A stretch of DNA of 64,000 bases, taken from assembly GCF_015354405.1 (NCBI RefSeq), contig NZ_JADKYP010000006.1:173853-237852 (forward strand), in the 5' to 3' direction. The notes beneath the pieces were generated by a model. It saw only the letters and a program-made list of their open reading frames with translations. It was not told the origin of the DNA and did not search any database. This stretch comes from Nocardia sp. BSTN01 (GTDB taxonomy: Bacteria; Actinomycetota; Actinomycetes; Mycobacteriales; Mycobacteriaceae). This document shows, in pieces, positions 299 to 14,068 of the stretch. Position 1 is the stretch's first letter. Every line of letters begins with the position of its first letter. Made by a program: the position numbers and the translations under genes.

Positions 299-1450
299 AT
301 GACCGACGTGCAGGGATGGGTGGATCCGGCCTTCGAGGCGGTCCGGGAGGTGTTCGCGGCCAACCTGGCCGAGGGACGTGATCTGGGCGCCTCGGTGGCG
401 GTGTGTGTGGACGGACGACCCGTGGTGGATCTGTGGGGCGGCGTCGCGGACGAACGCACTGGGCGACCGTGGGAGCAGGACACGGCATGCGTGGTCTTCT
501 CGTGCACGAAAGCGCTCACCGCGACGGCGGCCCTCGCCGTCGCGCAGGACGTCGGCATCGACCCGGATGAGCCGGTCGCGCGGTGGTGGCCCGAATACGC
601 GGTCGCCGGTAAGGAATCCACGACACTCACCGACATGCTGACCCACCGGGCCGGACTGCCCGTCTTCGAGCGGCCCATCACCGTCGCCGAGGCCGCCGAT
701 CCGGAACTGATGGCACGCACTCTCGCGGCGCAGCGCCCGATCTGGCGGCCGGGCGACGAACACGGTTATCACGCATTGACTTTCGGCTGGCTCGTGGGCG
801 AATTCGTTCGCCGCCACGCGCATTCGACGGTCGGCGAGTATGTGCGCGGCCACTTCGGCGCGGATCTGCGCATCGGCGTCTCCGCGGAGGCGGCCGCGCA
901 GGCGGCGCGTCTGGCCCGCCCGCCCGCTGCCGAGATGGTGTGGACGGACGACAGCGGGCCGATCGATGCGGCCGCGGCGGCCCGGTTGGTGGAGGCGTAT
1001 CGCGATCCGGATTCGCTGCTGATGCGCTCCTCGTCCAATCCTGCTGCCGCATACAACAATTCGGAGGTCCTGGCGGGCGGGTGGCCGGCGTCCGGTCTGG
1101 TCGTCACGGCTCGTGCTCTCGCCGGCTTCTATCGCGACCTCGTCGCGGGAACGCTGCTACCGCGGGCGGTCCTCGCGGAGGCCACACGAGAGCGGGTGCG
1201 CGGGGTGGACGCGGTGCTGCAACTCGAGACGGCCTTGGGCTGGGGATACATGCTGCCGTCGCAGAATTTCGTGCTGCCGGATACCGCGGCACCCACCGCG
1301 TTCGGGCATCCCGGCGCGGGTGGCTCGATCGGCATGGGCGATCTCGACAACCGGGTCGCGATCGCCTTCGTGCCGAATCTGCGCCGTGACTGGCTCGCCG
1401 GTGACCGGCGAGCCTACGAGCTGGTCGCCGCCGTCTACGATTGCCTCTGA
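299..1450 (+). CDS. serine hydrolase, beta-lactamase/EstB esterase family
   Basis: A 383-residue class C beta-lactamase-fold hydrolase, probably an esterase or lipase rather than a beta-lactamase. The nucleophile motif is SCTK (Ser68, Lys71), the second motif is YHA in GYHALTFGW, and a C-terminal HPGAGGS strand matches the HxG motif of EstB/LipL-type enzymes. No signal peptide is seen, so it is probably cytoplasmic. An in-frame ATG at 269 exists, but MTDVQGW at 299 begins the conserved helix and follows an AT-rich TTCTAATTT promoter-like stretch. It stands alone and its substrate is unknown. Confidence 0.85.
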   Translation: MTDVQGWVDPAFEAVREVFAANLAEGRDLGASVAVCVDGRPVVDLWGGVADERTGRPWEQDTACVVFSCTKALTATAALAVAQDVGIDPDEPVARWWPEYAVAGKESTTLTDMLTHRAGLPVFERPITVAEAADPELMARTLAAQRPIWRPGDEHGYHALTFGWLVGEFVRRHAHSTVGEYVRGHFGADLRIGVSAEAAAQAARLARPPAAEMVWTDDSGPIDAAAAARLVEAYRDPDSLLMRSSSNPAAAYNNSEVLAGGWPASGLVVTARALAGFYRDLVAGTLLPRAVLAEATRERVRGVDAVLQLETALGWGYMLPSQNFVLPDTAAPTAFGHPGAGGSIGMGDLDNRVAIAFVPNLRRDWLAGDRRAYELVAAVYDCL

Positions 1451-1471
1451 TATCTCCGGGGTCTCGCGGAT

Positions 1472-1867
1472 TCAGGCGAATGCGGCCGCTCTGCGGAGGG
1501 CGTCGAGGGTGGTTTCGGGTGAAGTGTTGAAGCAGAACCGGATTCCCGGCGCTGCCGCGGCGACGAGATTGACGACGCGTTCGAACAACAGGGTGTGCTC
1601 GGGGACGGCTCGCACCGCCCCGCCCACCATGACGAGGTCGAACGATCGGTCCGCCAGCACCGCGCGGAGGTCGTTCTCGGCTTCGTCGGGCGAGGCGGAG
1701 ACCAGGCACGGTGTGATGTCGAATTCGGTGTCCCGGAGGGCGGCGTTGGCGGCGTCGACCCGGGCTGTGAGTTGCTCCTCGTCCAGATCGGGAAAGCGAC
1801 TGTAGTCCAGCGCTCGTGGATGCAGTCCGATGGTCAGTGCGCGGAGGCGGGCGGCGGGATCGGTCAT
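1472..1867 (-). CDS. conserved hypothetical protein, divergent from a MarR regulator
   Basis: A 131-residue protein starting at MTDPAARL, chosen because AGAGGAG lies just upstream; a longer frame to 1975 would run through the promoter region. The C-terminal half alternates beta-rich VMVGG and helical segments ending FCFNTSPETT, resembling a Rossmann-like single-domain protein. No catalytic motif is recognised. It is divergent from the MarR gene at 1969 across about 100 bp containing a small palindrome, so it is a likely MarR target. Function unknown. Confidence 0.65.
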   Translation of the reverse strand: MTDPAARLRALTIGLHPRALDYSRFPDLDEEQLTARVDAANAALRDTEFDITPCLVSASPDEAENDLRAVLADRSFDLVMVGGAVRAVPEHTLLFERVVNLVAAAAPGIRFCFNTSPETTLDALRRAAAFA

Positions 1868-1934
1868 CGTGTCTCCTCTGGGAAAGGGAATGAGAGCTTG
1901 TGCACGTGGGACGATGGGCCTGCTCGGCGATTTA

Positions 1935-1949
1935 GCTTTGAAAGCAAAG
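1935..1949. promoter_or_regulatory. candidate MarR operator palindrome
   Basis: GCTTT-G-AAAGC is a perfect 5-bp-arm palindrome at 1935-1945. It overlaps a second inverted repeat, CTTTG-aaag-CAAAG, at 1936-1949. The site is about 20 bp upstream of the MarR start and between two divergent genes, the usual place for MarR autoregulation. Binding is inferred. Confidence 0.4.
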
Positions 1950-1968
1950 GTATTTGAGGGAGAAAGGT

Positions 1969-2427
1969 ATGTCAACGGAGAACGACGGCCTGTCCCTGGA
2001 CGACAGCGTCCGGGCGATGGTGCTACTCATGCCGCGACTGGTCGGCCGGGCCAAACGCCTGCCGGTTCCCGAAGCCCTGCGATCATTCGATCTGGCACCG
2101 CGCCACCTGTCGTTGTTGACATATGTGCTGTTCGACGGGCCGCTCCCGGTCAACGAACTGGCGAGGCGACTGGAGGTGGCGCCGACCACCGTGAGCCTGA
2201 TGATCGGCGACCTCAGCCGCCAAGGTGTCCTGGAGCGCCGCACCGACGACAACGACCGGCGGCGCACCCTCGTCGCGATCGCCGACGCGCACCGAACGGC
2301 CGTGGCGGACTGGCTCGGCGGTGCGGATCGGGGGTGGCGCGCCGCGCTGGGCCCGCTGACCGCGGAGCAGCGGGCCCTGGTCATCACGACACTGCGCGCC
2401 TACGAGGAAGCCGTCTCAGCCGGCTGA
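1969..2427 (+). CDS. MarR-family transcriptional regulator
   Basis: A 152-residue winged-helix regulator. The recognition helix region is LPVNELARRLEVAPTTVSLM (about residues 56-75), followed by a wing with DDNDRRRTLVAIAD, the conserved DxRxxxxxLT-type loop of MarR. The start is the ATG preceded by AGAAAGG; an upstream TTG in frame has no ribosome site. MarR proteins bind palindromes as dimers and are released by small phenolic or oxidant ligands. The divergent gene at 1472-1867 and its own promoter are the likely targets. Confidence 0.88.
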   Translation: MSTENDGLSLDDSVRAMVLLMPRLVGRAKRLPVPEALRSFDLAPRHLSLLTYVLFDGPLPVNELARRLEVAPTTVSLMIGDLSRQGVLERRTDDNDRRRTLVAIADAHRTAVADWLGGADRGWRAALGPLTAEQRALVITTLRAYEEAVSAG

Positions 2428-2443
2428 CACCGCGGAAGCCCGG

Positions 2444-2911
2444 TCAGGGTTCGAGATCGACGACGCCTGTGCCGCGGGCGATGTCGAACGGCACCGACAC
2501 CTGGTCGTGCGCGATCAGCCAGACGCCGTCGATCTTTCGCATTCCGTAGGTGACGCGGACCCACATACCGCTGGTGGCCACCCCGTTCTTCATCGTGCCG
2601 TGCAGTCGCGCGAACCCGTGCCCGAATGCCACGTCCTCGCCCACGGTGAACGTCAGGTCGCGAATCTCGTAGTTCACGTCCTCGAAGAACAGGAACACCT
2701 TGGCCCAGTTGTCCAGTTTCGCCGCGATGCCGACGTGCTGGAGTGGCGGCTCGACATCGAAGGACACGACGTCGGTCGCGTACGCCTGCCGCACCGCGTC
2801 GAGATCCTTGGCGCGCAGTCCGTCGATCACCCGGTCGATCTGCCGGCGGATCTCGGCTTCCTCGGCCGCGATGCGGTCGGCGCGGGACTGAAAGTCGTTG
2901 GATACGGTCAT
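2444..2911 (-). CDS. SnoaL-like / NTF2-fold protein
   Basis: A 155-residue cone-fold protein of the NTF2/SnoaL/ketosteroid-isomerase superfamily. It has an N-terminal helix (RADRIAAEEAEIRRQIDRVIDGL), a DVVSFDVEPPLQHVG strand-turn typical of the family, and a C-terminal GMRKIDGVWLIAHDQVSVPF sheet. Family members are small isomerases, cyclases or binding proteins, and the substrate cannot be read here. It starts 12 nt after the stop of the FMN reductase upstream and has a GAGGAG ribosome site, so the two form an operon. Confidence 0.75.
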   Translation of the reverse strand: MTVSNDFQSRADRIAAEEAEIRRQIDRVIDGLRAKDLDAVRQAYATDVVSFDVEPPLQHVGIAAKLDNWAKVFLFFEDVNYEIRDLTFTVGEDVAFGHGFARLHGTMKNGVATSGMWVRVTYGMRKIDGVWLIAHDQVSVPFDIARGTGVVDLEP

Positions 2912-2922
2912 GTTTCGACTCC

Positions 2923-3507
2923 TCAGGAATTGGCGAGAGTGGTTTCGGCGCCGGCCCGCAGCGAGGCCAGCGCGGTGCTCCAGGCGATGACTTGGCCCAG
3001 TGTCTTGTCCAGCGCGGCGCCGTGATGGTCACGCGGGGTGAAGGTGGTGTGGTTCTCGAAATCGGTGAGCACCGAGATGGCGACCTGATAACCCACATCG
3101 GCCATGCCCAGCGACCCGCAGACGGCCCGCAGTTGCACGACCGCGCGGGCGCCGCCGTTCGCGCCGTAGGAGACGAATCCGACCGCCTTGTCGACCCACT
3201 CGGCGAACGCGTGATCGAGGGCGTTCTTCAGCACCCCCGGCATTCCACCGTTGTATTCGGGCGTCACCAGGACGAAACCGTCGAACGGTGCGATCCGTTC
3301 TGCCCAGGCCCGGGTGTGCGCATGCACCGAGGGGCCGAACATCGGCGGCACCGGCTCGTCCAGATGCGGCAGCGGGTGATCGCGCAGATCGATCAGGTCG
3401 AACTCGGCGTCGCCGCGACGCGATGCCGAGTCCAGAACCCACTGCGCGATCTGGGCACCGTTGCGGTTGGGGCGGGTACTGCCGAGGATGATGCCGATTC
3501 TGGTCAT
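2923..3507 (-). CDS. NADPH-dependent FMN reductase
   Basis: A 194-residue flavodoxin-like reductase. The phosphate-binding loop GSTRPNRNGAQIAQWV (residues 9-24) and the TPEYNGGMPGVLKNALD motif near residue 85 are diagnostic of the ChrR/YwqN FMN-reductase family, which reduces flavins, quinones, nitro compounds or chromate with NAD(P)H. ATG is preceded by AGGAG. It is the first gene of a two-gene operon with the NTF2-fold gene. The physiological acceptor is unknown. Confidence 0.88.
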   Translation of the reverse strand: MTRIGIILGSTRPNRNGAQIAQWVLDSASRRGDAEFDLIDLRDHPLPHLDEPVPPMFGPSVHAHTRAWAERIAPFDGFVLVTPEYNGGMPGVLKNALDHAFAEWVDKAVGFVSYGANGGARAVVQLRAVCGSLGMADVGYQVAISVLTDFENHTTFTPRDHHGAALDKTLGQVIAWSTALASLRAGAETTLANS

Positions 3508-3652
3508 TTCCGGAACTCCTGGATGGCTGAAAACCTGTACGTCCTTCCGACGACGCAGCCGCCCGGAATGTCAGGCGGTGGGTGTGCCCGGCGGCTCGCG
3601 GTCGCGACGGTGGGTCGGGACCTGGTTGCGCGGTGTGCGGATCGGCGCTGGT

Positions 3653-3658
3653 TACGAT
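3653..3658 (+). promoter_or_regulatory. -10 element of the VanY-type gene, leaderless
   Basis: TACGAT lies 7 nt before the ATG at 3666, so transcription probably begins at the start codon. Confidence 0.45.
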
Positions 3659-3665
3659 CGTTTTC

Positions 3666-4154
3666 ATGCTGCGAGGACTTGCTGGTACAGCCGTGGTGGT
3701 CGGTGTGGCTCTGGCCGGGGCCGCGGGGCCGGGGCTGGCCGAACCCACCCCCACCGCATTCGCCGCCGGCACCGAAGGACTGGATCCGCTGCTGGCCGCC
3801 GCCTACACGATGGCCGAACGCCAGGCTCATCAGCAGGGCGTGCCGCTCGAGATCGTGTCCGGTCACCGCACGCGCGACGAGCAGGAACAGCTGTGGGAGC
3901 AGGGCATCGCCACCTACGGCGGCCCCGACGCCGCGCGGCGGTGGGTGCTGCCGCCGGACGAATCCACGCACGTGAGCGGCAAGGCGATCGACGTCGGCCC
4001 GCAGCAGGGGGCGCAGTGGTTGCAGGACAACGGAAATCGGTGGGGGTTGTGCCGGACATTCGACAACGAGTGGTGGCACTTCGAGTTGCAGACCTTCCCC
4101 GGCGCCGCCTGCCCGCCCCGGTGGCCTGACGCCAGTGTCCGTCCGCACCGATAG
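3666..4154 (+). CDS. secreted D,D-carboxypeptidase-like protein, VanY/peptidase M15 family
   Basis: A 162-residue protein with a signal peptide (MLRGLAGTAVVVGVALAGAA, cleavage near GLAEP) and an M15B VanY domain. Visible motifs are SGHRTRDEQ, the zinc-site HVSGKAIDVG (His and Asp ligands) and the C-terminal WWHFE (catalytic Glu region and third ligand). VanY enzymes remove the terminal D-Ala from peptidoglycan stem peptides. The protein is short and ends soon after the domain, in a Pro-rich tail. It is likely exported to act on the wall. It has no ribosome site, and a -10 hexamer sits 7 nt upstream. Confidence 0.85.
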   Translation: MLRGLAGTAVVVGVALAGAAGPGLAEPTPTAFAAGTEGLDPLLAAAYTMAERQAHQQGVPLEIVSGHRTRDEQEQLWEQGIATYGGPDAARRWVLPPDESTHVSGKAIDVGPQQGAQWLQDNGNRWGLCRTFDNEWWHFELQTFPGAACPPRWPDASVRPHR

Positions 4155-4322
4155 CGCGAAACTCGCGAATCGGATAGCTACCAACCGGTATTCAGCAAAC
4201 TTTCGGAGACACGCCGATTGTCCTGTCCAATACCGGTGTGGCGCACTCGCGGATGGGGCACTGTAAATGTCTGGCGGTTTCCCGGCAGACGGGCCGGGAC
4301 GCTCGAAGCGATGGAGGTTCGG

Positions 4323-4616
4323 GTGCGAGGGCGGGTTCCGGTACGGCGGAGCGGTGCGATACGTGGCAATGCGGTGCACAGCGAGACCGGGCCGGAGATA
4401 CCCACGGTCCAGCTGATCCCCGAGACCGGTCTGGCCTCGATTCCGTGCGGATGGCTGCTGCCGGAACTGCCCACCGCACTGCTCATCGCGGTCTTCGTCG
4501 GCACCGGCTGGGTCGGCTACGCCGCCTCCGACCGGCCGATTCCCGATCCGCCGCTGACCGTCGTGGTCGCACCCGGCGACCGGGATTCGTTGTCGGTCAC
4601 CTTCGGCGATCGGTGA
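4323..4616 (+). CDS. small single-span membrane protein, unknown function
   Basis: A 97-residue protein starting at GTG with GGAGG five nt upstream; an ATG 12 nt earlier is the alternative start. One hydrophobic helix (about residues 36-56, containing PTALLIAVFVGTGWVGYAA) is followed by a short Pro/Asp-rich tail ending VTFGDR. Third-position GC is high, as in neighbouring true genes. It is convergent with the SMC-like gene and separated from it by a hairpin. Not recognised. Confidence 0.5.
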   Translation: MRGRVPVRRSGAIRGNAVHSETGPEIPTVQLIPETGLASIPCGWLLPELPTALLIAVFVGTGWVGYAASDRPIPDPPLTVVVAPGDRDSLSVTFGDR

Positions 4617-4618
4617 GC

Positions 4619-4646
4619 CGCGCCGGGAGCGAATATGCCCGGCGCG
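4619..4646. terminator. bidirectional hairpin terminator after the SMC-like operon
   Basis: Perfect 9-bp stem CGCGCCGGG / CCCGGCGCG with a 10-nt loop, in the 43-bp gap between convergent stops. There is no U-tract. It marks the end of the operon directly after the TIGR02680 gene. Confidence 0.55.
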
Positions 4647-4659
4647 CAACCGGTTACGC

Positions 4660-7600
4660 TCAGCTGGTCGGTTCCAGTGCCTCGTCGAAGGTGATGCCTC
4701 CCTCGACGGTGTGCGGGGTGCGGCGCCGGTTGGGCGAGCCCAGGGCGGTGGTCAGATCGGAGCCGTCGTGCTCGGCAAGCAGCGCCGAGGAATCCCAGAC
4801 CAGCAGGGTCGCGCTGACGGTGTTCTCGGCCGCCGAATGGGCGAGATCGTAGTGCGCGCACGCGGGCACGTGATCGTAGGTGATCCACAGGTCGTAGCCG
4901 GTCATGAACAGGTCCAGATCGAAATCGACCGAAAGGCCGAGCAATTCGCTGCGACCGTTGTCGTCGACGCCGGCGAACGCCTCGTCCAGCGCGAGCAGTC
5001 GCGGCGCCTGCGGATCGGCCGAATCCAGCATCACGTGCGCGGCGGCGAACAGCGGAAGATGCAGCGACACCGACTGTTCGCCACCCGAGAGCGCGCTGTG
5101 CCGCGCCACGGTGAGCCGATCCTCGGAGCCGTCGGCGGTCACCAGGGTGAACGAGAACACCCGCCAGGTGCGATAGTCCAGGGTGGTCGCCAGGATCTCC
5201 GGATAGGACCGTTCCGGATGGGCCGCGCGCGCCGCACGGATCTCGGCGGCGAAATGCGCACGCACCGTGGCCAATTCGCCGGGTCCCAGGTCGGCAGCGG
5301 CCCGGTCGAGCAGCTTGCACACCGCGCGCGCCGACTCCGACAGATTGTCGGCCAGCACCCAGTGCACGCCGATGGTGTTACCCGAGGACATGCGCCGCTG
5401 CTTCATCTCCGCGCCCATCCGGGCGATGAGATCGCGGGCATCGCAGGTGCGTTCGTGGATCTGCTGCGCGAGTCCGGTCAGCAGCGCGTCCTCGAGAATG
5501 CGGCGCTCGGCATCGGTGAGCAACAGTTCCTGATCGGCGCGGGCCGCGGCGATGCGGTCGGCGAAGTCGGCCAGCGCCGCCATCCCGTTGTCGTCGTGCA
5601 CCTGCACCACGGTCAGGCCGTCGGCGGCATCCCACTGCAGGCGGTAGTCCTGGCGCGCGGAGGCCAGTGCGGCGTCGAATTCCTGCAGTGCCGCGGTCAC
5701 CGCGCTGCGGGTCGACTTGCGGGCCGACTCCCCGGCGCGCACGGAAGCGGTGGCGGCGCGGAGGTTGTCGAACAACTCGTGCACCTCGACGGGCAGGACA
5801 GCGGTCTCACCCTCCGGCCCGCCGGATTCGATGCGATACAGCAGCTGATCGGCGGTCGACCAGGCCGCCGGTGAACTCGGCCACCGGCTCTCGGTGGGCG
5901 CGCCCAGCAGCGAGAGCAGATCGGCCCGCGCGTAGGGGGCGAGTTGGCGGACGTCGCTGAGCAATTCGGTCAGCGCCGTGCCGAGGGACTCGTGAGCGGC
6001 GCGATAGGCGCCCTCGGCCGATCCGACCGCTTCGATCGCCTCGGCGGCGGCCTTGCGGGCGGCGCGCTGTTCGGCGCGGGCGGCGTCGATGCGCTCGCGG
6101 GCCTGCTCGAGTTCGCGGTCGATATCGGCGGCGTCGGCGCCCAACGCCTCGCGCAGCGTCTCGAGTTTGCGCGACTGCTCCTCGTAGCCGGCTCGGGCGG
6201 CCTCGGCCTCCTCGGCGAAAGCCTCGGCCAGATCCCGGGATTCGGCGAGCCGGTCGTTCGCCTCACGGGCGCGTTCGGCCTCACGCTGCTGGTCGCCGCG
6301 CAGCCGCAGCAGCGCGGTGCCGGTGTTCTCGAAATGGCGGACCGCCGCGGCGAGCGCGTCCAGTTCCGCGGGGTCGCGAGGCGCGTTGCGGGCGGCGGCG
6401 ACCGCGCGCACCTTCTTGTCGGCCGCGGTGAACGCCGAGACGGCCTGGTCCAGATCATGTTCGGCCTGCGCGGCCGCCTCGGTATGCGAGCGCAGCACCC
6501 CCGCCGCCTCGGAGACCGACCGCAGCGCCGCGATCACCGCACTGCTGCGCGGCAACTCCTTCGCGGCGGCCGCCAGCCGGGCCAATTCGCCGGAGGCCTC
6601 GTCGGCGTCCGCGCGGGCGCTCTGTTCGGCCTGTTCGGCGGCGGTGATCTCCTCGGTCAGCTCGGCCAGGCGCCGTTCCCGGCGCCGGGCCCGCGCGGTG
6701 GCGCCGATGAATTCCGCCTGCGGCTTGTGGTGGCGGCCGAGTTGCACACCCTGCCGGAAACTCCCGTCGCCACCGACCGCGACGAGGTTCTCGGACACAT
6801 GAGAGTCGTTGTCGCTCAGCGCGATCGAGGCCAGGATGTCGGCGAGATGGATGCGCGAGACCGCGGCGATCGGCGAATCGGAATCGTCGCCGACACCGTC
6901 CTCGACGACCAGCAGTTGCGCGAGCGTGGGACCGACGGGCCGTGCACTGGGCGGGAGCGGCGTCAGGAAGACGTCCGAATCAGTCTGCGGCGCTTGGTCG
7001 TTCGCCGCGACCCAGGCGTCGAGCAAGCCCGCGGCCTGCACGGCGGCCTCGATCCCAGCGGCGCGCTCGGCGTCGACGTCGTCGGCGAAGCGCACCAGCC
7101 GCCACAGTGGCGCACCGGCACGGGTGGCCCGGGAGTCGGTGCGGCTCTGCGGTGCCGGGGGCGCGTCGTCCTGTTCGGCCGCGACCCGCTGGCGTTCGGC
7201 ACGCAGCGCCGCGGCGCGGTCGCGCGCCTGATCGGCGGCCGCGCGAGCCTGACGGCGGCGGTCCCGCAGCGTTTCGGTGAGCGATTCGCTGTGCTCGGCC
7301 AGCACCTGCGGCAGCGGCGGCGCATCGTCACCGCCGGACTCTGCGAGTGCGGCGTCGAGCGCCTCGAACAATCCGGCGGCCACGGGGGAGTGCAGGTCGC
7401 GATGGATGTCCCACCAATTACGCAGGGACGCGGCGGTATTCGCGCGCGCCAACGCCACCGCGGCCTCCGCCTCGGCCAGTTCGGCGGTGGCGGTATCACG
7501 GTGGCGGCCCGCGCGTTCGACGGCGCGTTCCGCGCGGGTGCGGTCGGCCGCGGCGGCATCGGCCACCGTCAGCGCCTGGCGCACCGCGCGCACATCGGCG

Positions 7601-8883
7601 TCGCGTTCCTCGGCGTGACTGCGCACGGTAGTGGTGAGCTGTTCGGTGCGGGCCTGTTCCGGCAGCGCGGCCCAGGCGATTCCGGCTTCCTCGGCGGCCG
7701 CGCGCAGTTCGTCCTCACCTCGGGCCAGAGCCGCGGCGGCGGTGGTGACCGCGGCGGCGGCGCGTTCGTATTCGTCGCCGCGCTGGTCGGCCGCCTGCTG
7801 GGCCTTGGTCGCCTTGTCGCGGTGGACCGCCGCCGAGGTCTCCAGCCGCCGCACCGCATCGGCCAGATCGTCGAGCTGCTGCTTGCCCTCGTAGGCGTTG
7901 GAACGCTGCAGCGTCTCCCGATCGGTCAGGGCCTGCTCGTAGGCGCGATCGGCCTCCTCGGCTCGATGCTCGGCCGCGGTGCGCTCGGTCTCGCGTCGCT
8001 GCCGCAGTGCCGCGGCCGCGAACAGCGCCGTGCTGCCGTGGGTCACCGCGTCCAACCTTGAGCGCACCTGGTCCACATCCGACTTTGCCTGCACCGCAAG
8101 GTATTTACGATAGACGTCGACGAAGGTGCGAGTGGCGGAATCGGCGGCGACCAACCCCTCGAGCGTGCGGCCGACCTCCTCCATATCGCTGAACGAGCGG
8201 GCGGCGTCGAGGATCAGCTGATCGTCGAGCGGACGCAGACCGTCGGTCAGCGCCTGCGACAGTCCGCGCGGATCGAGGTTCTTGGCCAGCTGCGGGCGGC
8301 GCAGGGTCAGAATCAGATTGATCAACTGGTCGTAGCGCTGCACACCGAGACCGAACATGCGCGCGTCGATCGCGGCGCGATAGTCGACCGGGCGGTCCAC
8401 GATCGCGTCGGTGCCGATCTGCTCGGCCAGCTGTTTGCGGGTGAAGGGCCGATCGTCGGGACCGATCAGCGAGAAGTCCACGCCCACCCGGCCGTCGGCC
8501 ACGAAATACCACCGCGTCACCTTGTCCGAGGACCGGGTGGCACGCATCCCGATGCCGACGGTCACCACCTCGGGCTCCGACCAGCGCCCGCGCGCGAATT
8601 CCATCCAGACGTAGGAATAGGCCGAATCCTGTTTGCGATACAGCAGATTCGACTTCATCGTGCGCTCTTCACCGGCGAACGGATTCAACCGGCGCGGCTC
8701 GATGCGGCCGTCGAAGACGAAGGGGAACAACACCTCCAGCGCCTTGGTCTTGCCGGAGCCGTTCGGCCCGCGCAGCACCAGCCGTCCGTCCGCGAAGCAG
8801 AATTCCTGATCCCGGTAGTCCCACAGGTTGACGATCCCGGCGCGGGTGGGAATGAAGCGGACACCACCGTGAATGAGGTCCAT
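4660..8883 (-). CDS. jetC: SMC-like coiled-coil ATPase, TIGR02680 family (Wadjet JetC / EptC-like)
   Basis: A 1407-residue ATPase with split ABC halves: Walker A GPNGSGKT (residues 39-46) at the N-terminus, and signature SGGEQ (from residue 1266) and Walker B LLALDEAF (1296-1303) at the C-terminus. Between them are roughly 1000 residues of Ala/Glu/Arg-rich coiled coil (about 260-570 and 700-1150) around a globular hinge-like part near 590-700. TIGR02680 proteins are the MukB/SMC-type motor of systems that recognise and restrict plasmid DNA, including mycobacterial EptABCD. It starts 3 nt after the DUF2398 gene, in one operon. All ATPase motifs are intact, but no nuclease gene follows. Confidence 0.88.
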   Translation of the reverse strand: MDLIHGGVRFIPTRAGIVNLWDYRDQEFCFADGRLVLRGPNGSGKTKALEVLFPFVFDGRIEPRRLNPFAGEERTMKSNLLYRKQDSAYSYVWMEFARGRWSEPEVVTVGIGMRATRSSDKVTRWYFVADGRVGVDFSLIGPDDRPFTRKQLAEQIGTDAIVDRPVDYRAAIDARMFGLGVQRYDQLINLILTLRRPQLAKNLDPRGLSQALTDGLRPLDDQLILDAARSFSDMEEVGRTLEGLVAADSATRTFVDVYRKYLAVQAKSDVDQVRSRLDAVTHGSTALFAAAALRQRRETERTAAEHRAEEADRAYEQALTDRETLQRSNAYEGKQQLDDLADAVRRLETSAAVHRDKATKAQQAADQRGDEYERAAAAVTTAAAALARGEDELRAAAEEAGIAWAALPEQARTEQLTTTVRSHAEERDADVRAVRQALTVADAAAADRTRAERAVERAGRHRDTATAELAEAEAAVALARANTAASLRNWWDIHRDLHSPVAAGLFEALDAALAESGGDDAPPLPQVLAEHSESLTETLRDRRRQARAAADQARDRAAALRAERQRVAAEQDDAPPAPQSRTDSRATRAGAPLWRLVRFADDVDAERAAGIEAAVQAAGLLDAWVAANDQAPQTDSDVFLTPLPPSARPVGPTLAQLLVVEDGVGDDSDSPIAAVSRIHLADILASIALSDNDSHVSENLVAVGGDGSFRQGVQLGRHHKPQAEFIGATARARRRERRLAELTEEITAAEQAEQSARADADEASGELARLAAAAKELPRSSAVIAALRSVSEAAGVLRSHTEAAAQAEHDLDQAVSAFTAADKKVRAVAAARNAPRDPAELDALAAAVRHFENTGTALLRLRGDQQREAERAREANDRLAESRDLAEAFAEEAEAARAGYEEQSRKLETLREALGADAADIDRELEQARERIDAARAEQRAARKAAAEAIEAVGSAEGAYRAAHESLGTALTELLSDVRQLAPYARADLLSLLGAPTESRWPSSPAAWSTADQLLYRIESGGPEGETAVLPVEVHELFDNLRAATASVRAGESARKSTRSAVTAALQEFDAALASARQDYRLQWDAADGLTVVQVHDDNGMAALADFADRIAAARADQELLLTDAERRILEDALLTGLAQQIHERTCDARDLIARMGAEMKQRRMSSGNTIGVHWVLADNLSESARAVCKLLDRAAADLGPGELATVRAHFAAEIRAARAAHPERSYPEILATTLDYRTWRVFSFTLVTADGSEDRLTVARHSALSGGEQSVSLHLPLFAAAHVMLDSADPQAPRLLALDEAFAGVDDNGRSELLGLSVDFDLDLFMTGYDLWITYDHVPACAHYDLAHSAAENTVSATLLVWDSSALLAEHDGSDLTTALGSPNRRRTPHTVEGGITFDEALEPTS

Positions 8884-8886
8884 GGG

Positions 8887-10332
8887 TTACTCCGTCCCCT
8901 TTCCTGAGGTCCTGGATCCCGCCGCGCCGGCCGATGCGGTCGCCGGTTCCCCGGTGGCGTGCGCGCCCAGCGATCGCGCCGAGGCGAACAATTCGGATTC
9001 GGCCCGCGTGCGCACGGTGACCACCGCGCCACGGTAGCGAGCGAGCGCGGGCAGGGCCAGGACACCGCCGTCGACCGTCTCCACGAGGGACAACCGCGCC
9101 AGCAGACCGACCACCTCGGTGGTGAGCCCGCCCACATCGGCCTGCCACTGGGCGGCGAAGGTCGAACCGTACCGCTCGGTGAGCGCGTGCACCGTCGCGC
9201 GAATCCACTCGTCGTCGACGAACGGATGGGTGATCGGCTCGGGGCCTTCTTCGTCGTCGGCCGGATCTTCGGCGTCGACGGGTTCCTGCGGCGCCGTGAC
9301 CAGGGGCGCGAAGACCGTGGCCGCCGGAATGGCGGCATCGAGGCCGTCGGCGATGCCGGTGGCGGCGGGCGGGCGCGGTCGGCGTGGCAGCGGATCATCG
9401 ATGTCGAGGACCCGGTCGGCGATCTCACCGATCAGCAGCAGCGCCACCTGCGCGAGCGTTCCGGTGCCGGGGAAGCGCACATCGGAGAACCGCCCCGAGG
9501 TGTCGATCAGGGCCACGCCCTCACCGCGGCGTTCGGCGCGCAGCCCGGTCAGCAACTCCACCTCCGCCACGATCTTCTCGCTGCCCAGCGCGGATTGCTC
9601 GGCCGCACCGAGGGTTTCGGTATAGACGACCGGCAGTTCGATCAGCGCCCGCCGTACCCGGCGCGCGGCCGCGGCCCGCGACGGCACGGAAGTCGTTGCG
9701 GCGGAATCGGTGTCGTCGGCGAGCAGCGTACGCACACTGTGCAGATGCTGCAACGCGCGCGGTGGCCGGAAGATCGCGAACACCACCGAGCGGTCGATGT
9801 CGTAGAGGGCCTCACCCGCTTCCGGGTCGGCCGCCCAGCCGCCGGCGTCGCCGTCGGCGAGGGACAACGCGCCGCGGGCGGCCAGCCACGCCACCGCGTC
9901 CACGAACGCGTCCCGGTCGGCGGCCCGTTCGGTCGACAGTTCCAGCCCCTCCACCCGCACGGCGTAGGCGGCGACCTGATCGGCCAACTCCGACAGCGTG
10001 ATCTGGTCACCGGCGCGACCGAGCGCGGCCAGGGCGAGCGACAGATAGGCGTAGCGGCGCCGGTCGAAGACGCGATCGGCGGGGGTGCGGGCGGGCCGGC
10101 CGGTGTCGAGCCGGTCGGAGATCGGGAACAGCCGCGCCGTGGTCTCGGTGACCTCGAGCCGGTAGCCGAGCAGTTCGGCCATATCCTCGCGCAGTTCGGT
10201 GGCCCAGCGCCGAATCAGCGGCAGCGCAATGCGATCCGGGAAGGTCCGCGTCACCAGATGATTGGCCAGCATTACCCGGGCGGCGCGCTGGTAGCTGTCC
10301 AAGGCCAGCGGGTCGATGGTTGTCGCGTGCAT
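8887..10332 (-). CDS. jetB: TIGR02678 / DUF2398 protein, second subunit of the SMC-like system
   Basis: A 481-residue protein matching the TIGR02678/DUF2398 pattern: an N-terminal QRAARVMLANHLVTRTFPD helix, a conserved LRAEDMAELLGYRLEV-like segment (ELREDMAELLGYRLEVTETT), then FDRRRYAYLSLALAAL and winged-helix-like repeats. It is a presumed accessory (KITE-like) subunit that bridges the kleisin-like and ATPase subunits; this role is inferred from Wadjet architecture. ATG at 10332 overlaps the upstream stop (TGATG), indicating translational coupling; a GTG three nt earlier is possible. The C-terminal part is acidic and low in complexity near residues 330-370. Confidence 0.85.
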   Translation of the reverse strand: MHATTIDPLALDSYQRAARVMLANHLVTRTFPDRIALPLIRRWATELREDMAELLGYRLEVTETTARLFPISDRLDTGRPARTPADRVFDRRRYAYLSLALAALGRAGDQITLSELADQVAAYAVRVEGLELSTERAADRDAFVDAVAWLAARGALSLADGDAGGWAADPEAGEALYDIDRSVVFAIFRPPRALQHLHSVRTLLADDTDSAATTSVPSRAAAARRVRRALIELPVVYTETLGAAEQSALGSEKIVAEVELLTGLRAERRGEGVALIDTSGRFSDVRFPGTGTLAQVALLLIGEIADRVLDIDDPLPRRPRPPAATGIADGLDAAIPAATVFAPLVTAPQEPVDAEDPADDEEGPEPITHPFVDDEWIRATVHALTERYGSTFAAQWQADVGGLTTEVVGLLARLSLVETVDGGVLALPALARYRGAVVTVRTRAESELFASARSLGAHATGEPATASAGAAGSRTSGKGTE

Positions 10333-11939
10333 CACGACCGCCCGGAGGCGGTACGGGCGCGGGAATTCTCGCGCACCTCGAGCCGGCGGTGATCGAGATA
10401 CAGCAGACCCTGGGCGGTACGCACCACCGTGGACCCGGGATGTTCGCGGACCGTCAGCGTGACGCCGCTGTCGGAGCCGGTCGTGCTCACCCGGCCGCTC
10501 ACCGGAACCCAGGCGGTGGAGGCGGCGTCGAGCAGTCGCAGCAAAACTTCGGTTTCACGTTCGTCCAGGACCCGATCGTGCACGTTGGCGGCGGCCAGCG
10601 ACATCGCGGCCGCCGCGCGGGCCCGCTGCGTCTCCAGTTGTGCCTGGCGCAGCCGCCGCACCCCGGCGTCGTTGCGCACGAGCCGCGCGGGCGCGCCCGG
10701 AGTGGGCTGGCGGCCGGTTTCGGCGAGCGTGCGCGCGATCTCCAGCGGCGCTGCCTCCCACCAGGATCGGTGAGCGGGAATGATGTCGGCGTCGGGATGC
10801 TCCATCGACAGATGCCGCGGTTTGCCCAATCCGAATACGACGTCGAACAGGGCGTGCGCGCTGTCGGTGGTGGGCGCGGCGGCGAACCAGCCGGCCAGAT
10901 GCCGCAGCGCCGACTCCCGGCTCACCCCGCCCTTGCGCGTTTCGGTCACGCGGCGCAGCAGCGACAGCACCGCGGCGATCGCGCTCATGGTCGCCTCCCG
11001 CAACCGTTCGGCCTCGGTCGCCGGCGCGGATTCGGCGCCGGGGTCGGGCGCACCGCGATCGCGGACCGCGACGAACCATCCGCGCAGCCCCTGCCAGCGG
11101 GCCCGCCAATCCGCCTCGCGCGCCGCGACGTCGAGCAACACCCGCTCGTCACAGGACGCGGCCCGGCTGATCAGCGACTCGGCGCCGGTGTCGTCGACCT
11201 CGGCGATCGCGGCCGCCAGCCGGGGCGCGTAGCGAGCCAGATCCATACTGAATTCGCGCATATGCGCCAGCAGCGCATCCTTGTGTGCCAGAAAGGCTTC
11301 CGGCGTGGCCTCGGTCGTGCGGACCAGATCGCCGAGGGTCAGATAGAAATGCGCCGCGCGGTCGGCCAATTCGGACAGCGCGGTGTCGAGCCGCTTCAGG
11401 ATCCGATACACCCGCTCGGCGTCGCCGTCGCGATTGGCCTGCGCCAGCGCCTGCAGATCGGCCAGCAGTTCCGGAAGCACCAGCCGCGAGAGTGAGGCCT
11501 CGTCCAGGCGCGCGCCCAGTACCTCGTTCACCGCCCGATACGCCTGAAATCCGGCCTGCGAGAACTGATAGACGTAGTGCCGGTTGCGATATTCGGCGAG
11601 CGTCGCCGCGCGGGTGCCGTCGTAACTGCGTTCCAGCACACCCCAGGTGTGCAACTGCTCGAGCAGCGGACCGATCTCGGTGGCGGTGGAATGCGGGGCA
11701 TCCGGCATCCGAGCCAGGGTGTCGGCCACATCGGAGGCGTGCAGCAGCACCACATAGGCGGCGCGGGCGTGGTCGAATGCGCGCAGCACCCACAGATAGT
11801 CGTTGCGTTTGTCGGCGGTGGCGAAGGAGAACAACCGCAGCCGGTCCGCGCCCTCGATCACGGTCTCACCCCGGGTGGGGGAGACGCCGTCGAACAGTGC
11901 GGGTTCGGCCGGCAGCAATCGGTCAGCGGACTCGGTCAC
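10332..11939 (-). CDS. jetA: TIGR02677 / DUF2397 protein, first subunit of the SMC-like system
   Basis: A 535-residue protein with the DUF2397 opening LRLFSFATADKRNDYLWVLRAFDHA and an internal LLEQLHTWGVLERSYDGTRAATLAEYRNRHYVYQFSQAG block, both typical of TIGR02677. By analogy with Wadjet JetA it is the kleisin-like bridge of the ATPase dimer. Start: GTG at 11939 is chosen because TACGCT is placed 7 nt upstream and no ribosome site exists; GTG 11945 is the alternative. It is first of three overlapping or abutting genes and lies 60 nt downstream of the DUF2127 stop. Confidence 0.85.
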   Translation of the reverse strand: MTESADRLLPAEPALFDGVSPTRGETVIEGADRLRLFSFATADKRNDYLWVLRAFDHARAAYVVLLHASDVADTLARMPDAPHSTATEIGPLLEQLHTWGVLERSYDGTRAATLAEYRNRHYVYQFSQAGFQAYRAVNEVLGARLDEASLSRLVLPELLADLQALAQANRDGDAERVYRILKRLDTALSELADRAAHFYLTLGDLVRTTEATPEAFLAHKDALLAHMREFSMDLARYAPRLAAAIAEVDDTGAESLISRAASCDERVLLDVAAREADWRARWQGLRGWFVAVRDRGAPDPGAESAPATEAERLREATMSAIAAVLSLLRRVTETRKGGVSRESALRHLAGWFAAAPTTDSAHALFDVVFGLGKPRHLSMEHPDADIIPAHRSWWEAAPLEIARTLAETGRQPTPGAPARLVRNDAGVRRLRQAQLETQRARAAAAMSLAAANVHDRVLDERETEVLLRLLDAASTAWVPVSGRVSTTGSDSGVTLTVREHPGSTVVRTAQGLLYLDHRRLEVRENSRARTASGRS

Positions 11940-11946
11940 CGGCACG

Positions 11947-11952
11947 AGCGTA
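11947..11952 (-). promoter_or_regulatory. -10 element of jetA, leaderless
   Basis: TACGCT on the minus strand ends 7 nt before GTG 11939. It supports that start and an independent promoter for the three-gene operon. Confidence 0.45.
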
Positions 11953-11999
11953 ATACCTGCCCGCGCGCCGCGGCGGCGCACCCGGGCCTCGGCGTGCCG

Positions 12000-12764
12000 T
12001 CACCCCGCCTCGGTGGCGACCGCGGAGCGTTCCACGGTCAGCAGGCTCTCCTCGCTGTGCTCGCGGTGGTAGGCGGCGCCACCGCCGTTGAGGCCGAACA
12101 ACCGCTTCGACCACAGCAACCAGAGCACCGCGGCGACATTGATCACCAGGGCACCGGCGCGGACGACGGTGATGCGCTCGGTGAGCTCATAGATCTCGAG
12201 CGGCAGGAACAGCGAGGTGGCGATCACCGCGAAATACTCACCCCAGCGCTGCACGTACCACAGGCCCACGGCCTCCACGAATTCGATGACGGCATACGCC
12301 AGCAACCCCACCGCGATCCAGGTGAGCACGGTCGGTGACAGCGTCCAGCCCTTCTCGATGAACGCGACGATCTTGGAATTGTCGGGATTCCAGCCGATCT
12401 GGTCGGCGAGCGGGCGGATCAGCGGCAGCTCCCGATCGAATGCGGCATGCAGTTGCTCCTGCGAATTGCGTACCTTGAACACCCCGGCGGCCAGCACCAC
12501 GAACACCAGCCCGCGGATCACCCGTTCGGCGGCCAGCAACCGCATGATCAGCCGGTCGCGCAGCAGCCGCCCACGCGGCACCTCGGGCGCCGCATCGGCC
12601 GGGCCGCGCCCGCGCGGCTCGCCGATCACGAAATTCCCGCAGCGCAGACACCGCCAGGCCTCACCGGCGGCCGTCGAAACATGCAGGCGCGCAGCCAGTT
12701 CCGCTTCGTCGGGGGCGTAGGTGGCGTGCCCGTGCCACGAGCAGCTGCGCAGACTGAAGTCCAT
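12000..12764 (-). CDS. DUF2127 integral membrane protein
   Basis: A 254-residue protein. The N-terminal part (about 1-60) is soluble with a CxxC pair (WRCLRCGNF), possibly a small zinc ribbon. The DUF2127 membrane part has four hydrophobic segments: around RLLAAERVIRGLVFVVLAAG, LTWIAVGLLAYAVIEFVEAV, YFAVIATSLFLPLEIYEL and ALVINVAAVLWLLW. Function of DUF2127 is unknown. It precedes jetA on the same strand, but each gene has its own -10 hexamer, so co-function is only a possibility. Confidence 0.8.
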   Translation of the reverse strand: MDFSLRSCSWHGHATYAPDEAELAARLHVSTAAGEAWRCLRCGNFVIGEPRGRGPADAAPEVPRGRLLRDRLIMRLLAAERVIRGLVFVVLAAGVFKVRNSQEQLHAAFDRELPLIRPLADQIGWNPDNSKIVAFIEKGWTLSPTVLTWIAVGLLAYAVIEFVEAVGLWYVQRWGEYFAVIATSLFLPLEIYELTERITVVRAGALVINVAAVLWLLWSKRLFGLNGGGAAYHREHSEESLLTVERSAVATEAG

Positions 12765-12835: not shown

Positions 12836-14068
12836 TCAGCTCATCGACAGCACCCGCAACTGCTCGAGATAGGTGCGGGTGCGGGGATCGGACGGATAGC
12901 GTTCGATCATCTCCCGCGCCGCCTCGCCCGCGATCCACAGCAGCGACGGCAGCGAGCGGCGCTTGCCCTCGAACGCGCGCATCGCCTCGTCGACCGCGAG
13001 CTCCAGATCGCGATCGCGAACCGCCACCACGGCCAGGGTCAGCTGTGCCTCGGAGACGCGCATCGGCTGACGGACCGAACCGTCGAGGCCCGTGGCGCTG
13101 CGGATCACCTGGCGGGCATAGGCTTCCGCCGGGCGATTGTCACCGGCGACCCGGGAGCAATCCATGGCGTAGAAATCGAATTTCTGCGCGTCGACGACGA
13201 AATGGTTGTCCAAATTTGCCGGATTGTCCAATTGTCGCAAGATATCTCGGCCGCGTTCGAGCGCGCGTTCCATCGCCTCGCGATCGCCGATGCGCGCCCA
13301 CGCCTTGGCCTGCTGCGCGGCCAGTTGCACGCCGACACCCATACCGCGGCAATTGTCGAGGGCGGACTCGGCCACCTCGATCGCGCCGCGGTAATTGCCC
13401 TGGGTGATGGCGAACCACGCCGCCATTTCCGCACCCCAGCCGACGATTTCGGGATGTTCGGCCTCCTGGCCCAGCGACAGCGCCGCGCGGCGGGTCGCCT
13501 CCGCGGCGGTGCGCCGGCCCAGGTCGTAGTCGACGCATCCGACCAGCAACGCCACCCAGCCGGCGAGGACCAGCACTTCGCGATGCTGCGCCAGGGTCAG
13601 CCGCCCGTCGAGCAGCGAGGTGATGCGCCGCAGCCACGCGGTGCCCTCGGTATGCAGTTCGTGCGGGTCGGCGAAGGGATATTCGCAGCACAGCCGCTCG
13701 GCGGTGATGCGAATGGCATCCAATGTGGCCGAAGAGATGTCGGACATCCGCAGCCGGCCGATGAACTCCAGCGTGTCCATTCCCGTTGACGACAGAAGTT
13801 CGTCGTCCCGATTGGGGCGCGCCTTGGGGAAAAACGCCGCGGTGACGGTGTCGAATGCCGCGGCGATGATCGGCGCGTAGAAATCGTCCGGGCGCGACTC
13901 GCCCGATTCCCAACGGCGCCAATTGCGTAGGAGGGTACTGTCTGTCGGCAGGTTGTGGGATGACTTCGCGCGCATCGCGCGGACGGCATCCGCTTGGGAC
14001 CACCCCCGCGCGTCTCGTTCGGAGCGCATCCTGACAGCCCAGACGGGTCGATCGTCACTCACGGCCAC
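12836..14068 (-). CDS. XRE-type helix-turn-helix regulator with TPR-like domain
   Basis: A 410-residue regulator. The N-terminal HTH (about residues 8-60, RSERDARGWSQADAVRAMR and LLRNWRRWESGESRP) is followed by about 300 residues of paired helices, a TPR-like sensor as in actinobacterial proteins that act beside small signalling genes. The GTG start at 14068 has no ribosome site, and GTG at 14062 is equally possible. It is divergent from a resolvase-like small protein, with a 24-bp inverted repeat between them that is its probable operator. Targets are unknown. Confidence 0.8.
   Translation of the reverse strand: MAVSDDRPVWAVRMRSERDARGWSQADAVRAMRAKSSHNLPTDSTLLRNWRRWESGESRPDDFYAPIIAAAFDTVTAAFFPKARPNRDDELLSSTGMDTLEFIGRLRMSDISSATLDAIRITAERLCCEYPFADPHELHTEGTAWLRRITSLLDGRLTLAQHREVLVLAGWVALLVGCVDYDLGRRTAAEATRRAALSLGQEAEHPEIVGWGAEMAAWFAITQGNYRGAIEVAESALDNCRGMGVGVQLAAQQAKAWARIGDREAMERALERGRDILRQLDNPANLDNHFVVDAQKFDFYAMDCSRVAGDNRPAEAYARQVIRSATGLDGSVRQPMRVSEAQLTLAVVAVRDRDLELAVDEAMRAFEGKRRSLPSLLWIAGEAAREMIERYPSDPRTRTYLEQLRVLSMS

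Follow-up and report, generated by a model that had tools for sequence, protein, structure and literature searches.

A type II Wadjet core without its nuclease gene at a fixed locus in Nocardia and its relatives: a candidate chromosome-handling SMC complex

In a 64,000-nucleotide stretch of DNA from Nocardia sp. BSTN01 (contig NZ_JADKYP010000006.1, positions 173,853 to 237,852 of the forward strand; hereafter the window), positions 4660-11981 of the minus strand carry intact jetA, jetB and jetC genes of a type II Wadjet system and lack the nuclease gene, jetD. The core is intact and has been inherited vertically at a single position of the chromosome by many Mycobacteriales, all of one GTDB family (the family, below), and jetD is absent from the locus in most carriers, although relatives have it at the same place. 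We infer a nuclease-free structural maintenance of chromosomes (SMC) motor, descended from a type II Wadjet, that works in the cell as MksBEF and MukBEF do (probability roughly 0.6). It is highly probable that the three proteins form a functional complex without a nuclease; that its role is specifically chromosomal is the favored interpretation, held with less confidence. Retention of the motor after the loss of jetD suggests that it now serves another job.

The first-pass annotation, made from the sequence of the window alone, recognized a TIGR02677, TIGR02678 and TIGR02680 trio, and family models, Pfam and PADLOC all bear this out (Table 1). The top PADLOC models are JetA2, JetB2 and JetC2, all of type II; no MukB, MksB or type I JetA or JetB model is listed for any of the three proteins, and JetC1 models match weakly (E 2e-10 and 2.5e-5). 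The trio lies outside the MukB and MksB sequence families, its best models being those of type II Wadjet, and it qualifies as type II for JetA, JetB and JetC but has no JetD in the operon. The ATPase motifs reported earlier for the SMC-like protein, Walker A, signature and Walker B, are all found in JetC, in which Pfam also identifies an SbcC-type Walker B domain. JetC thus carries the ATPase motifs of an SMC protein. The closest relatives by JetA (97-99% identical) are N. mikamii, N. aobensis, N. kruczakiae and N. nova.

Comparison with the JetABC structure of the Neobacillus vireti Wadjet-II (9qe0) points the same way. A PDB sequence search pairs JetC with JetC of that structure (9qe0_A, E 1.6e-69), and JetA matches its JetA by profile (E 3e-18). 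The structure models of JetA and JetB are of low confidence (mean pLDDT 64 and 54) and served for fold matching only. The JetA model matches 9qe0_E and MukF in fold, and together with the sequence match this identifies JetA as having a predicted kleisin fold. For JetB, the PDB sequence search gave no match, and the sole Foldseek match passing E 0.001 was to JetB of the same structure (9qe0_D, E 2e-6).

That the operon has neither a nuclease gene nor room for one was claimed at the outset and is confirmed. About 0.5 kb separates jetC from the VanY-like gene, whereas jetD takes about 1.2 kb, so it would not fit, and the JetD profile finds no match within the window's first 20 kb. How general this is can be seen from the family, where a JetA orthologue (E ≤ 1e-60) occurs in 145 of 401 genomes and 9 of 31 genera. 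When the Rhodococcus JetD from this locus served as query and the results were compared by hand, 33 of these 145 genomes had a JetD of the locus type next to jetA, a count in which G361 (genus code g27), with pieces on another contig, is ambiguous. By genus code, jetD lies beside jetA in 29/37 genomes of g6, 2/26 of g23, 1/4 of g16 and 1/17 of g27, and in none of Nocardia (0/39), g10 (0/14), g22 (0/6), g25 (0/1) or g28 (0/1). These counts come from whole-family searches; the 40 hand-picked neighborhood regions under-represent the jetD-bearing g6.

Individual loci give a similar picture. Among 133 analyzed, 112 extend past jetC, and a JetD profile match (E < 1e-20) is present in 18 of these, five from named Rhodococcus, three from further family genomes and ten from outside the family. 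The other 94, including all 64 Nocardia loci that extend past jetC, are without jetD, two of them (L189 and L198) holding less than 0.8 kb of sequence after jetC. Weak JetD-profile matches in L067, L205 and L206 (E 0.1-0.7), and second frames in L117 and L246, were treated as chance, and L103 and L182 are one Antrihabitans locus. All 12 orthologues listed from outside the family (46-58% identity) were retrieved, and jetD is present in 10 of the 10 that extend past jetC. The earlier statement that a fourth gene normally follows the trio therefore holds outside the family and fails inside it. The family locus often has metH and PAC2 upstream and mshC downstream, neighbors that were not found at the orthologous loci outside. 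Relatives on plasmids are rare, with 11 of 72,556 records matching at E ≤ 1e-20 (eight Streptomyces, two Pseudonocardia, one Cupriavidus), all below 60% identity and none from Nocardia or Rhodococcus.

The history of jetD was followed on a tree built from the joined JetA, JetB and JetC sequences of 59 loci, 16 of which have jetD (26 of the 133 loci were left out of the alignment, mostly where a contig ends within the operon and in a few cases because a frame was short). The state of jetD changes at least four times on this tree; 12 losses are needed if the root had jetD and no lineage regained it. Twice, jetD-bearing and jetD-less rows are sisters at short distance (L191 with L193, and L174 and its kin with L173). 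In a JetD tree of 46 rows, the 18 JetDs of the locus form one clade (100/99), within which the eight of the family are a clade (99/96) sister to the ten from outside (97/93); 28 JetDs from elsewhere in Nocardia branch apart. Since the locus JetDs form one clade separate from the other 28, jetD was probably ancestral at the locus and then repeatedly lost. The space between jetC and mshC, about 1.2 kb in loci with jetD, is 14-74 bp in eight of the ten jetD-less loci listed, and 562 and 1087 bp in the other two. In the sister genomes G284 (with jetD) and G367 (without), the same seven bases follow the jetC stop; in G284 they lead into jetD, and in G367 directly into a hairpin and then mshC. Separately, the jetD-less L187 and L193 have in this gap a near-identical, perfect-looking palindrome (GTGAGTACTT..TTAACC), with a related one in L190, which may be a shared two-way terminator.

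A locus that has lost its nuclease gene could be a relic in which jetABC is decaying. Absence of the trio from 23 of 149 Nocardia genomes fits such an account, as do shortened JetB or JetC frames in five loci that no contig end truncates (L068, L077 and L113 inside the family, L241 and L243 outside), though these may be assembly errors. Selection speaks otherwise. Simple pairwise estimates of the ratio of nonsynonymous to synonymous substitution rates (dN/dS) in three Nocardia groups have medians of 0.087, 0.191 and 0.097 for JetA, 0.195, 0.187 and 0.131 for JetB, and 0.138, 0.142 and 0.110 for JetC, the last value covering about half of the JetC codons. The corresponding values are 0.038, 0.012 and 0.040 for PAC2 and 0.065, 0.129 and 0.103 for metH, and jetD-bearing Rhodococcus has lower ones (JetA 0.047, JetC 0.057). 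JetABC is under purifying selection, clearly constrained though less so than PAC2. The motifs GPNGSGKTK, LSGGEQS and LDEAFAG are kept, apart from A/G swaps beside them, in 107 of 107 JetCs (91/91 without jetD, 16/16 with it).

Nor does the trio leave debris where it is missing. Some JetA match exists in 132 of the 149 Nocardia genomes, six of them weak only (G021, G051, G064, G089, G098 and G111), and a jetA orthologue of 72-100% identity in 126. PAC2 could be located in 22 of the 23 trio-less genomes, and the 19 regions fetched contained no JetABC match and no remnant; in 18 of the 19 the regulator gene found upstream of jetA in the window is followed by VanY within 222 bp. Because the inspected trio-less regions hold no remnants, the trio is present whole or not at all. 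A recent local deletion with decaying jetABC, which the first-pass annotation named as the case that would overturn its reading, was looked for across relatives and is rejected given carriage by 126 of 149 Nocardia, purifying selection, invariant motifs and the lack of remnants. The relic account is very improbable and already largely refuted.

Alternatively, JetABC might recruit a nuclease in trans, whether the JetD of another Wadjet in the same cell or some unrelated enzyme encoded elsewhere. The source genome (7.79 Mb, G000, with the window on contig C163) provides candidates. A whole-genome TIGR02679 search, proposed earlier and now run, did find one full JetD, at C121:95419-96540 on a separate contig, but this gene sits in an operon of its own in the order D-A-B-C, with TIGR02677 and TIGR02680 genes and a 418-aa open frame at the jetB place, and falls in a different clade from the JetDs of the trio locus. 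The second match is weak (E 0.087) and is the JetD3 of a third, type III-like Jet system (L007, G000:C130:314000-326000, at 337-8178), whose JetA3, JetC3 and JetD3 models match and whose small second frame (244 aa) matches no PADLOC model. The JetD-facing surfaces of the trio are, moreover, not obviously degraded. Across Nocardia, however, TIGR02679 matches (E ≤ 1e-3) occur in only 49 of 149 genomes (above the curated cut-off in 30), of which 41 carry the trio, so that 85 of 126 trio-bearing genomes have no such match; type I and III JetDs were searched in the source genome only. The model does see locus-type JetD, that of Rhodococcus scoring E 2e-53 and 181.8 bits against a curated cut-off of 196. 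The C121 operon was rejected as a general supplier on these counts and on its separate JetD clade.

Elsewhere too, JetDs appear to belong to other systems. By hand comparison of the 41 genomes with both trio and TIGR02679 match, a match on the same contig is never less than 480 kb from the trio, and the remainder are on other contigs, which in draft genomes is by itself no proof of distance. These JetDs are of other clades (28 in the tree), and in 20 Nocardia regions inspected a JetC homologue is near in 20, JetB in 19 and JetA in 15. One trio-less genome (G146) has JetC and JetD homologues at L140, 4941-8629, where JetA and JetB were not found, perhaps a broken type II system. A replacement nuclease adjoining jetC was considered and rejected, since the genes downstream differ between lineages: in Nocardia VanY follows at varying distance, and several other genera have mshC there. 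No conserved neighboring gene was found, although no search was aimed at unrelated nucleases. Supply in trans is thus doubtful. Of the three options first listed (a nuclease in trans, a different nuclease, no cleavage), the evidence favors the last, and no adjacent nuclease is conserved.

Absence of cleavage need not mean absence of defense. JetABC could fully extrude small circular DNA and then compact it, silence it or hinder its partition, as proposed for Smc5/6 on viral circles. The sensor half of the system is conserved, and in the total-extrusion model, as set out in the cited part of a review that also describes silencing by Smc5/6, JetABC is the sensor and JetD the executor (PMC10586767). 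On the other hand, the trio has a fixed locus and is present in most Nocardia species, whereas TIGR02679 JetD is patchy, and restriction in B. subtilis needs all four genes according to the same part of that review (PMC10586767). We consider non-cutting defense unlikely, though it is the strongest rival to the reading we prefer, ahead of a nuclease in trans.

For the nuclease-free motor that we prefer, the following course may be envisaged. An ancestral jetABCD would have settled at the metH-PAC2-mshC locus, and jetD would then have been lost repeatedly. Judging by homology to 9qe0 and MukF, the arms driven by ATP would be formed by JetC, with JetA as the kleisin and JetB as the KITE part. Such a motor would still grip and move DNA without JetD, as MukBEF and MksBEF do, and the remaining complex would be an ATP-driven, DNA-loop-forming machine acting on the cell's own chromosome, in its organization or segregation, beside canonical SMC. 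Whether repeated nuclease loss at one fixed locus has in this way given the whole family a resident SMC complex for handling its chromosome, made out of a type II Wadjet immune motor, is to our minds evenly balanced.

Several observations weigh against this proposal. Canonical SMC is encoded in the same Nocardia genome, so a chromosomal role could be redundant, and MksB of Corynebacterium glutamicum is described, in the part of the source cited, with a role in plasmid defense only (PMC10123090). The trio is dispensable, as the 23 genomes without it attest, and its proteins change at a somewhat higher rate than PAC2 and, for the most part, than metH. Few alignment columns separate the jetD-bearing proteins from those of jetD-less Nocardia (11, 5 and 14 in JetA, JetB and JetC) and the JetB N-terminus is nearly invariant, so that there is no clear loss of a JetD interface; differential conservation of JetABC located none. 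For family members the branching order of JetABC is rejected by the JetD tree (approximately unbiased test, p 0.028), and deep JetD distances are 1.7-2.0 times the JetABC distances, compared with 0.5-1.7 outside, so jetD may have been exchanged or regained there. Both the tree conflict and the distances would be accounted for if JetD evolves rapidly or has been exchanged among family members.

The surroundings of the operon are summarized in Table 1. The starts described as overlapping do overlap by 4 bp between jetA and jetB, but jetB and jetC are 3 bp apart. The hairpin reported past the last stop is present, but its terminator role is not supported: it folds no better than composition shuffles (z -0.56; 55 of 200 fold as well) and is not among the entries of the terminator scan. 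The suggested leaderless promoter is likewise unsupported, because a scan of 4000-12200 gave no sigma-70-like promoter and GTG codons at 11981, 11945 and 11939 are all candidates for the jetA start. Upstream of jetA, the NsdA-family regulator lies within 2.5 kb in 67 of 85 Nocardia loci with enough sequence; because all 19 trio-less genomes that were inspected have it too, it is a neighbor and not part of the system. The DUF2127 gene holds its place in the window and in G133, and not in six other Nocardia compared.

Table 1. Features of the jetABC operon and its flanks, in window coordinates.
Feature	Coordinates	Strand	Remarks
jetA, kleisin-like subunit (DUF2397/TIGR02677)	10332..11981	-	TIGR02677 E 1.3e-70; PF09660 E 9e-143
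jetB, KITE-like subunit (DUF2398/TIGR02678)	8887..10335	-	TIGR02678 E 1.7e-40; PF09661 E 2.6e-68
jetC, SMC-type ATPase	4660..8883	-	TIGR02680 E 3.2e-229, profile positions 1-1352 of 1356
Hairpin past jetC, possible terminator	4611..4652	-	begins about 8-13 nt past the stop of jetC (4660)
Gap from jetC to the convergent VanY-like gene, site expected for jetD	4155..4659		no JetD match, too short
VanY-like gene, convergent with jetC	3582-4154	+	
DUF2127 membrane protein gene, between regulator and jetA	12000-12764	-	
NsdA-family TPR-like regulator gene, upstream of jetA	12836-14068	-	

A search limited to the open PMC literature found no description of a jetD-less type II Wadjet. A table in one source gives Rhodococcus erythropolis a three-protein Wadjet_II (PMC12915292, the part cited), which may be a jetD-less locus of this type. 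The review quoted above, in the passages cited, already proposes nuclease loss as a route for type I (MksBEF), and calls descent of MukBEF-type condensins from Wadjet tempting but unresolved (PMC10586767). If our reading is right, the trio would show that a nuclease-free MukBEF-like condensin has arisen from a defense system a second time, separately from MksBEF, and both the ancestral and the derived state would still be found among living relatives. At this locus, close relatives are distinguished by jetD alone, which makes the step from immune to nuclease-free motor directly testable. Tools that score three genes as Wadjet would then be counting jetD-less loci as plasmid defense, which bears on surveys of Wadjet such as the counts in Actinobacteria, where an enrichment of 42% against 7% is given in the part of the survey cited (PMC10482375).

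The trio resembles type II Wadjet (JetABCD; DUF2397/DUF2398/TIGR02680/TIGR02679) in its three core subunits, by family models, PADLOC and 9qe0; unlike it, the Nocardia trio has no JetD gene and sits at a conserved chromosomal locus, and JetD is absent in most family members of the clade. With MksBEFG/EptABCD of C. glutamicum and Mycobacterium smegmatis it shares being an accessory SMC complex of mycolic-acid bacteria, but those systems keep the nuclease MksG and restrict plasmids, as the cited part of the source has it (PMC10123090). Like the nuclease-free MukB-like condensins MksBEF and MukBEF, it combines an SMC protein, a kleisin and a putative KITE subunit without a nuclease, and its JetA model resembles MukF. 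It differs from them in that its subunits are of type II and not type I, its role on the chromosome is a proposed one, and the loss took place inside one family whose jetD-bearing sisters are still alive. Plausibly, by analogy, it is a Wadjet-II core that lacks JetD and yet works as MksBEF does.

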